64,000 nt of DNA from Bacillus sp. RO3 (lineage in GTDB: Bacteria; Bacillota; Bacilli; Bacillales; Bacillaceae_B). A model generated the notes under the pieces. It saw nothing but the letters and a program-made list of their open reading frames with translations. It did not search any database and had not been told where the DNA came from. The stretch lies in contig NZ_JAAXCV010000029.1 of NCBI RefSeq assembly GCF_012911895.1, positions 1 to 64,000 on the forward strand. Reading direction: 5' to 3'. Of this stretch, positions 33,855 to 39,285 are shown one piece after another (within the stretch, counting starts at the first letter, position 1; every line of letters begins with the position of its first letter). The translations under genes were made by a program, and so were the position numbers.

Positions 33855-33864
33855 CCCCTGCGTA

Positions 33865-33893
33865 AAGAAGGCTCACAGGACAGGAGCCTTCTT
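33865..33893. terminator. Terminator between convergent genes
   Basis: AAGAAGGCTC / GAGCCTTCTT, 9-base loop, between the 43-aa gene and the Spo0M-like gene. Confidence 0.8.
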
Positions 33894-33902
33894 CAGCTTG
33901 CA

Positions 33903-34292
33903 TTAACAAATAGAAATATAATCTTCGTCGTAACTCTCTACACCTTGATCGAACGTGAGCTTGGTTTTGAAAAGGTATCGTACCCCGTTTTCATTTGAAT
34001 ATGGAAGAGTCTCAGGTATTCTATAGGTAAAGGCTAATTTGTTTCGTTCTTCAGCTTTGATGCTGTCGGACTTTAATACAGTAGTAGAGTCAATGATCTT
34101 TTCTTTCTTACCATTGTTATCGAGCATCACCAGGTCACATTCTACCCGCTTGAGCTTTTGTTCAATAATCCCTCCTTCCAGAAAGAAATAGCCATGGAGG
34201 AGTTCACCTAGTTTGAACGAATTTTTTGGTAAAACAAGGTCAATCTTTGCAGAACCCACACCAATTAATGACATATATTTCCTTAAAATCAT
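33903..34292 (-). CDS. Spo0M-like (arrestin-fold) protein, one domain
   Basis: 129 residues. GVGSAKIDLVLPKNSFKLGELLHGYFFLEGG is the Spo0M N-terminal signature; Spo0M, a sporulation control protein, has about 258 residues in two domains, so only the first is present. Start ATG 34292 follows GAGGAGG and overlaps the stop of the FbpB-like gene. Both lie behind the manganese riboswitch at 34525-34614. A paralogue is at 38890. Confidence 0.8.
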   Translation of the reverse strand: MILRKYMSLIGVGSAKIDLVLPKNSFKLGELLHGYFFLEGGIIEQKLKRVECDLVMLDNNGKKEKIIDSTTVLKSDSIKAEERNKLAFTYRIPETLPYSNENGVRYLFKTKLTFDQGVESYDEDYISIC

Positions 34293-34426
34293 TTAAAATC
34301 CTCCTCGGCTGAAGAATATTTTTGATCTATCTTTTCTTCGATACCTTCCATGACTTTCTTATCATTTAAGATTTCATTCTTGTTCTGTTCTATAAGTTGA
34401 GTGAGACTGGTTTTTAGTTTTTTCAT
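34289..34426 (-). CDS. FbpB-like small protein
   Basis: 45 residues: basic, Leu-rich start (MKKLKTSLTQLIEQNKNEIL) and NDKKVMEGIEEKIDQK, the layout of the FbpB family, whose B. subtilis member is a Fur-controlled helper of the iron-sparing small RNA FsrA. Start ATG 34426 with AAAGGAAG. Overlaps the Spo0M-like gene by an ATGA and is the first gene after the Mn riboswitch terminator. Confidence 0.65.
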   Translation of the reverse strand: MKKLKTSLTQLIEQNKNEILNDKKVMEGIEEKIDQKYSSAEEDFK

Positions 34427-34461
34427 CGATTTAACTTCCTTTCAACATGAAATGAATATAG

Positions 34462-34495
34462 AAAAAGACCTTTACCGGAGTCGGTAAAGGTCTTT
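34462..34495 (-). terminator. Riboswitch expression-platform terminator
   Basis: AAAGACCTTTACCG (5' on the minus strand 34495-34482) pairs over 14 bp with CGGTAAAGGTCTTT, loop ACTC, then TTTTTC. It stands between the riboswitch aptamer and the FbpB-like gene. Its 5' arm contains CCTTTACC, which can instead pair with GGTGAAGG (34518-34511). Confidence 0.85.
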
Positions 34496-34510
34496 AAGGA
34501 CATATTTAAG

Positions 34511-34614
34511 CCTTCACCAACTGGTAAAGGTCTCGCTAACAACGTAGTTGTCAATAAAGCCGAGAGTAATGTACTCTGTAATGACGACTTTATTGTTAAA
34601 GCTACTCCCCTTTA
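34511..34614 (-). ncRNA. yybP-ykoY manganese riboswitch
   Basis: On the minus strand: CTAAAGGGGAGTAGC at the 5' end and TTAGCGAGACCTTTACC at the 3' end, with CGTCATTACAGAG and CTCGGCTTTATTG between, match the yybP-ykoY consensus that binds Mn2+. P1 is TAAAGG (34614-34609) with CCTTTA (34530-34525). The 3' strand of P1 also pairs with GGTGAAGG (34518-34511), giving two exclusive folds. With P1 formed, GGTGAAGG is free to pair with the terminator arm, so metal binding should permit transcription. Confidence 0.85.
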
Positions 34615-34637
34615 GGAGAATATTAGATTATGTACAT

Positions 34638-34666
34638 ATCATAATCGATGGAGAAAAAGTTGTCAA
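34638..34666 (-). promoter_or_regulatory. Sigma-A promoter of the riboswitch transcript
   Basis: Minus strand TTGACA (34666-34661), exactly 17 bp, TATGAT (34643-34638). Both boxes are near consensus, so the leader is strongly transcribed and control must lie downstream. Confidence 0.85.
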
Positions 34667-34843
34667 TACATCTAGCTGCCCATTATAGGATTTTGAATTT
34701 CAAAGGAACAGGCTTTAACCATTCTGCTCCAGAGTGATATCTGATAAGATATATCATTTGTAGTCCCATAGCAGGAAATCATCTGAAGAATAACGAAGTA
34801 TACGGGGTAGAATAGTAAATGAGAAACAGAAAGGGGTCATCCT

Positions 34844-38889: not shown

Positions 38890-39285
38890 TTATACTAAAA
38901 TCTGAAAATCATCATGATCGACACTGTTTACTCCGTCATCAAACACCAGACGGGTGACGAACTTATAAGAGACCGTTTCACTGCTGGGGGGAAATGAATC
39001 GGAGAGTCTGCATGAAAAGTGAATGGTGCGTTGTTCGTTTGCCTTCATTGTTGACGAGCTTAATATGGTATTGTGATGAAGAACCGATGATTCATCCGTA
39101 TTTTGATCGTACTGCAAAAGGTCTGTTTCAATTCGTTTCAACTTCTGCTCAACACGCCCGCCAGTCAATTCATATTCCCCTTTAATGACATCTCCCGGGC
39201 GAAACTCTGTCTTATTTAATACCAAATCAATCTTTGTTGCACCTATACCGAACCTGCACATCAGTTTACTGAACATACCTGTCAT
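38890..39285 (-). CDS. Spo0M-like (arrestin-fold) protein, one domain (second copy)
   Basis: 131 residues. FGIGATKIDLVLNKTEFRPGDVIKGEYELTGGRVEQKLKRIE parallels the copy at 33903 (AKIDLVL, GG-EQKLKR, TRLVFDDGVNSVDHD vs TKLTFDQGVESYDED). Again only the N-terminal half of Spo0M. Start ATG 39285 is close to GAGAGG; ATG 39276 is the alternative. No riboswitch precedes this copy. Confidence 0.75.
   Translation of the reverse strand: MTGMFSKLMCRFGIGATKIDLVLNKTEFRPGDVIKGEYELTGGRVEQKLKRIETDLLQYDQNTDESSVLHHNTILSSSTMKANEQRTIHFSCRLSDSFPPSSETVSYKFVTRLVFDDGVNSVDHDDFQILV

Follow-up and report, generated by a model that had tools for sequence, protein, structure and literature searches.

In the DNA analysed here, the first 64,000 nucleotides of contig NZ_JAAXCV010000029.1 of Bacillus sp. 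RO3 (hereafter, the window), a two-gene operon encoding an FbpB-like small protein and a one-domain Spo0M appears to be controlled by a yybP-ykoY-class (Mn2+) riboswitch that lacks helix P2 and acts as a transcriptional ON switch. The probability of this reading is put at about 0.87, where we infer the ligand, the direction of the response and the roles of the two proteins. The class itself is known; what is new is the P2-less structural variant and its gene set. No report of a P2-less Mn riboswitch subclass with this regulon was found in the open-access literature.

A P2-less aptamer in the leader

The promoter and the aptamer region comprise the following features.

34666-34638, minus strand: sigma-A promoter, TTGACA-17-TATGAT, 11/12 consensus bases
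34620-34523, minus strand: predicted P2-less yybP-ykoY (Mn2+) aptamer with helices P1, P1.2, P3, P3.2 and P4, from RF00080, our own covariance model R1 and pairing in relatives
34609..34614, minus strand: 5' arm of P1, UAAAGG, with L1 GGGGAGUAG overlapping and following
34578..34584, minus strand: internal loop L3, UCAUUAC, with UCA invariant in 23 sequences

A near-perfect sigma-A promoter had been claimed in a preliminary description made from the sequence, and it was recovered as listed, its TTGACA being kept in relatives. An imperfectly conserved inverted repeat, ATTATG-N7-CATAAT, lies over the -10 box (34645-34627, minus strand) and was considered as a possible operator, a reading that was dropped because the first arm is not preserved in loci L013, L014, L021 and L023. 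A consensus scan of the window for the Fur box TGATAATNATTATCA with up to 3 mismatches gave 11 matches against 9 expected, none of them over the promoter and the nearest at 34742-34756.

The leader, from 34620 to 34464 (minus strand), holds GGGGAGUAGC...UUAGCGAGACC and a 14-bp terminator, and folding of the full leader is much stronger than in shuffles (z -6.6). RF00080 is by far the best Rfam family for it, matching at 34622-34538 (minus strand) with 35.1 bits (E 4.3e-8) in an Rfam search by E-value; at the gathering score, which for this family is curated at 45 bits, no Rfam family is found in the window. Matches of 31-41 bits to RF00080 were obtained in 20/20 loci of the nearest relatives. 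With R1, of which the window sequence was part, the window aptamer scores 117 bits (E 3.5e-32).

In the RF00080 alignment the helix P2 segment of the window leader is deleted, and this absence would explain the score under the cut-off. The four-way junction with P2 is absent, and of 159 related leaders 151 have the same 11-nt linker between L1 strand and P3 loop in its place, a constancy that argues for a three-way-junction subclass and not a decayed copy. The three-way-junction structure, 30 pairs taken from the window sequence, is paired in 690 of 690 cells across 23 sequences, with compensatory (both-sided) changes at 3 of the 30 pairs, and slid controls gave at most 49% paired. The core of L1 (GGGGAGUAG...GC.AGACC) and L3 (GUCGUCA), with P1, P3 and P4, is invariant or almost so in the same 23 sequences. 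By its position the A at 34582 in L3 is likely to be the Mn2+ ligand, the role of the invariant A being known from yybP-ykoY crystal structures (PMC6754395). As judged by these features, the leader very probably contains a Mn2+-class aptamer, a structural variant without P2 with Mn2+ as the predicted ligand. The earlier claim of a yybP-ykoY aptamer thus stands on the E-value and the conserved structure, though under the gathering score; a low covariance score had been named as evidence against it, and the score is indeed sub-threshold, yet the element is real and differs only in lacking P2.

The same absence of P2, which extends across the whole subclass, could instead indicate a variant with a shifted ligand (Fe2+, Co2+, Ni2+ or Cd2+), the operon then belonging to iron or general metal metabolism. 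The B. subtilis FbpB family is Fur-regulated and iron-linked (PMC8464778), and GCCAGACC-type changes are present in some members of the subclass; however, the L1 and L3 core is preserved, in many genomes the subclass precedes a TerC of the YkoY type, which is a manganese protein, the consensus scan found no Fur box at the promoter, and the FbpB equivalog cut-off is not reached by the window protein. A change of ligand is accordingly considered improbable.

Predicted switching by four mutually exclusive arms

The expression platform consists of four successive 8-nt arms, the 3' arm of P1 being at the same time arm A.

34530-34523, minus strand: arm A, CCUUUACC, 3' arm of P1 and alternative partner of B or D
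34518-34511, minus strand: arm B, GGUGAAGG, predicted to pair with A (OFF) or with C (antiterminator, ON)
34490-34483, minus strand: arm C, CCUUUACC, within the terminator
34476-34469, minus strand: arm D, GGUAAAGG, within the terminator
34495-34464, minus strand: intrinsic terminator of 14 pairs, formed by arms C and D

The strong terminator and the exact positions of arms A, B and C agree with the preliminary description, to which arm D has been added. In unconstrained folds of growing transcripts A/B is formed first, followed by A/D around B/C, and both leave the U-tract-adjacent arm paired once made. When P1 is imposed on the fold, the B/C antiterminator is preferred at lengths 138 to 152, as long as D is unfinished, and it gives way only to the longer terminator at length 157; in folds lacking P1, A is paired with B or D. 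Once the whole terminator has been transcribed, C/D outcompetes B/C at equilibrium even with P1 forced, and hence the ON state must be kinetic. Since B/C is optimal with P1 forced between lengths 138 and 152, the switch is predicted to be ON with Mn2+, by kinetics, and these folds support the ON-type transcriptional platform proposed earlier. The L. lactis member is an ON switch via P1.1 (PMC11087558).

B/C pairing is complete (8/8) in 109 of 140 leaders, and in Mesobacillus-type loci, where A is CCUUUGCC, B is GGUGAAGG and C is CCUUCACC, C follows B and not A, which suggests that this pairing is under selection. The number of paired B/C cells, 987 versus at most 982 in 1000 shuffles, exceeds the controls by a small margin that ignores relatedness, and the agreement between B and C might partly come from duplication of the A/B hairpin. 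Beyond Rossellomorea, a U-rich tail often follows the A/B hairpin itself (6 or more U within 11 positions in 140/159, by a loose count), possibly giving two terminators in series. The U tail is weak in Rossellomorea, and A/B probably acts there as an anti-P1 only.

Without Mn2+, arm A of P1 would pair with B and/or D, the terminator would form and transcription would end upstream of the FbpB-like gene. With Mn2+, docking of L1 and L3 would stabilise P1 and hold arm A, so that B could capture C as soon as it is transcribed, leaving D without a free partner. RNA polymerase would then read through, and the FbpB-like and one-domain Spo0M genes would be ON at high Mn.

The window switch resembles those of L. 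lactis yoaB and B. subtilis ykoY (RF00080) in the L1 and L3 motifs, in P1, P3 and P4, and in a transcriptional ON design in which the 3' arm of P1 is common with the terminator. It differs from them in the lack of P2, in a platform of four mutually exclusive arms, and in its first genes, which encode an FbpB-like protein and a one-domain Spo0M and not a transporter.

Genes and gene orders behind P2-less switches

Downstream of the terminator lie two genes and a probable end of the operon.

34426-34289, minus strand: FbpB-like small protein of 45 aa (PF13040), RBS AGGAAG at 34440-34435
34292-33903, minus strand: one-domain Spo0M (arrestin-fold) of 129 aa (PF07070), RBS GAGGAGG
33864..33893, minus strand: probable end-of-operon hairpin with a 10-bp stem, AAGAAGGCUC/GAGCCUUCUU, and a short U tail, read from the sequence

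The hairpin was not picked by the terminator consensus scan, which covers loops of 3-8 only. The preliminary description of a 45-residue FbpB-like protein followed, with an ATGA overlap (34292-34289), by a 129-residue one-domain Spo0M-like protein was confirmed by matches to PF13040 (E 2.1e-13, 50 bits versus a cut-off of 25) and PF07070 (E 3.5e-19, 69.7 bits versus a cut-off of 23, profile positions 1-134 of 213). As judged by the family models, the 45-aa protein is FbpB-like and not an FbpB equivalog, scoring 37.3 bits under the 60-bit cut-off of NCBIfam NF033227. Like B. subtilis FbpB, it is a small PF13040 protein; unlike it, it is approximately net neutral rather than basic, and its gene is under a predicted riboswitch. 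The B. subtilis Fbp proteins have merely been postulated to be RNA chaperones (PMC8464778).

The second Spo0M arrestin-like domain is absent from the 129-aa protein, and a similar short length is found in other genomes, so it is not the product of a local frameshift. Its AlphaFold model is all-beta (pLDDT 82) and matches residues 13-135 of 5cl2, the N-terminal arrestin-fold domain of the two-domain B. subtilis Spo0M, with Z 15.9, well above other matches, and 28% identity. Control also differs, B. subtilis spo0M being under sigma-H (PMC2515105) and the window gene under a predicted Mn riboswitch. A second one-domain Spo0M gene, at 38890-39285 (minus strand) of the window, encodes 131 aa that are 41% identical; it is conserved in the genus and has no Mn aptamer.

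R1 was run on 79 named genome loci from Bacillaceae, fetched by a Spo0M protein alignment built from riboswitch-linked proteins, and the aptamer was found upstream on the same strand in 76 of them, that of L107 being weak (44.8 bits). Given this query, 76/79 is a rate for this clade and not for all Spo0M, and it shows that the window arrangement is not a local deletion. The three exceptions are L106, which starts 300 bases before the gene, and L117 and L141, which are distant or partial copies. An identical Spo0M protein is present in Rossellomorea sp. AcN35-11, the window being assigned to Rossellomorea, and the other hosts include Metabacillus, Mesobacillus, Peribacillus, Domibacillus, Priestia, Neobacillus, Halalkalibacter, Heyndrickxia and Bacillus sp. 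SG-1.

Gene families in the 76 loci were assigned by homology models built here, and representatives were checked against Pfam. An FbpB-like gene is present in 54, DUF1232 in 23, and TerC in the same operon in 18. The orders are FbpB-Spo0M (31), FbpB-Spo0M-DUF1232 (12), Spo0M alone (9), FbpB-Spo0M-TerC (8), Spo0M-DUF1232 (6) and smaller classes; in L107, L115 and L116 the switch is followed by TerC and then Spo0M. Among 83 R1-type switches sampled across the taxonomic order, 23 were viewed only 1.5 kb downstream, and the counts of TerC (at least 38), FbpB-like (at least 40), Spo0M (at least 26) and DUF1232 (at least 16) are therefore lower bounds. At least 66 of these switches are followed by one or more of the four families, 17 by none within view, and TerC stands alone behind 17. 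As gene orders vary behind a common switch, the modules have been shuffled and yet kept under one RNA class. From conservation and gene context, this is a P2-less subclass of predicted Mn riboswitches whose regulon includes FbpB-like proteins, one-domain Spo0M, DUF1232 and TerC.

Other genes were also seen behind P2-less Mn switches. A kinase-like protein of ~204-213 aa recurs (L148, L058, L168 and L182), as does a protein of 93 aa whose cysteine motif resembles CxCxGxxxxCxxCxGxG (L149, L156 and L200); Pfam gave no match for the L148 and L149 copies, respectively. An EcsC gene was confirmed by Pfam in L181, one of a group (L181, L193, L056, L178, L204 and L145) in which DedA-like, UppP-like and CPA2-antiporter-like genes were recognised by eye.

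The preliminary description had noted that no transporter follows this switch, and had regarded an exporter merely deleted here as grounds against its reading. No transporter lies behind the pair in the window, but TerC of the YkoY type shares the operon in 18 of the 76 loci. This number, and the switches with TerC alone, could mean that the switch belongs to a TerC gene lost here, leaving FbpB and Spo0M as passengers without function in Mn biology. An exporter of this kind is thus found in part of the relatives, whereas in Rossellomorea the pair has a switch to itself. In nearly all sampled Rossellomorea Spo0M lies directly behind the switch, and in most the FbpB-like gene and the start/stop coupling are present as well. 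Across the loci Spo0M may lie before or after TerC or have no TerC beside it, the FbpB-like gene recurs with and without Spo0M, and the Spo0M protein is 83-91% identical in nearer relatives. The gene census of the switches weakens a TerC-only model, and loss of TerC from around functionless passengers is given little credence. That the leader is no riboswitch, and only the remnant of an RNA or an ordinary leader ending in a terminator, would fit the sub-threshold Rfam score but is very improbable, because the structure and the switching arms are conserved over many genera.

A possible connection between Spo0M and TerC

The P2-less riboswitch has predicted counterparts elsewhere in the genome.

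C11:67785-67887: second P2-less Mn switch (L142), before a YkoY-type TerC gene, with the same tandem hairpin platform
C28: canonical Mn switch (L001/L143) before TerC, RF00080 56.1 bits
C19:84634-84744: weak fourth Mn-aptamer match (L144, 33.8 bits), before a Na/Ca-exchanger-type gene

In the genus of the window, one switch serves only the FbpB-Spo0M pair, and a second one without P2 precedes a related TerC elsewhere. This TerC (C11:67000; NCBIfam R_switched_YkoY) belongs to the same branch as the operon TerC. The canonical C28 copy is of the same class as the window switch but has P2 (UAGGUGUCCUACCUA) and a single hairpin platform, and directly controls TerC. YkoY/MeeY-type TerC shares the Mn-riboswitch regulon and, in relatives, the operon, although it has no copy at the window locus. 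In B. subtilis, MeeY/YkoY, whose own gene is controlled by a Mn riboswitch, is active in Mn efflux and participates in the metalation of enzymes that are exported (PMC10550928). An operon FbpB-Spo0M-TerC is found in Bacillus sp. SG-1, a known Mn-oxidising marine strain, and in B. salacetis (L105 and L112).

From this context, the FbpB-like protein and Spo0M would be induced at sufficient or high Mn2+, and most likely function alongside YkoY-type TerC when Mn is sufficient or in excess. A further proposal, speculative and rather unlikely as it stands, is that one-domain Spo0M is a soluble arrestin-fold partner or regulator of the multi-pass membrane protein TerC; induced by Mn2+ and with the FbpB-like protein as a helper, Spo0M would bind TerC or the Sec/TerC complex and set Mn2+ export or the metalation of exported enzymes. 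In 2008 it was suggested, speculatively and on other grounds, that Spo0M is connected with seven-transmembrane proteins (PMC2515105). No open-access paper covering both yybP-ykoY and Spo0M was found, and those on Spo0M plus riboswitch or manganese deal, by their titles and abstracts, with other subjects.

The P2-less Mn riboswitch subclass defined here has members that the Rfam cut-off can miss, and the regulon is therefore probably under-annotated. Two families, one-domain Spo0M and an FbpB-like peptide probably outside Fur control, would join the manganese regulon of many Bacillaceae, DUF1232 being the third, and operon sharing ties the first two to TerC. The old speculation that Spo0M, the bacterial representative of the arrestin clan, acts together with a membrane protein of the multi-pass type is thereby made testable, and a pairing of Spo0M with TerC, if true, would be a bacterial parallel to the arrestin-type control of membrane transporters.
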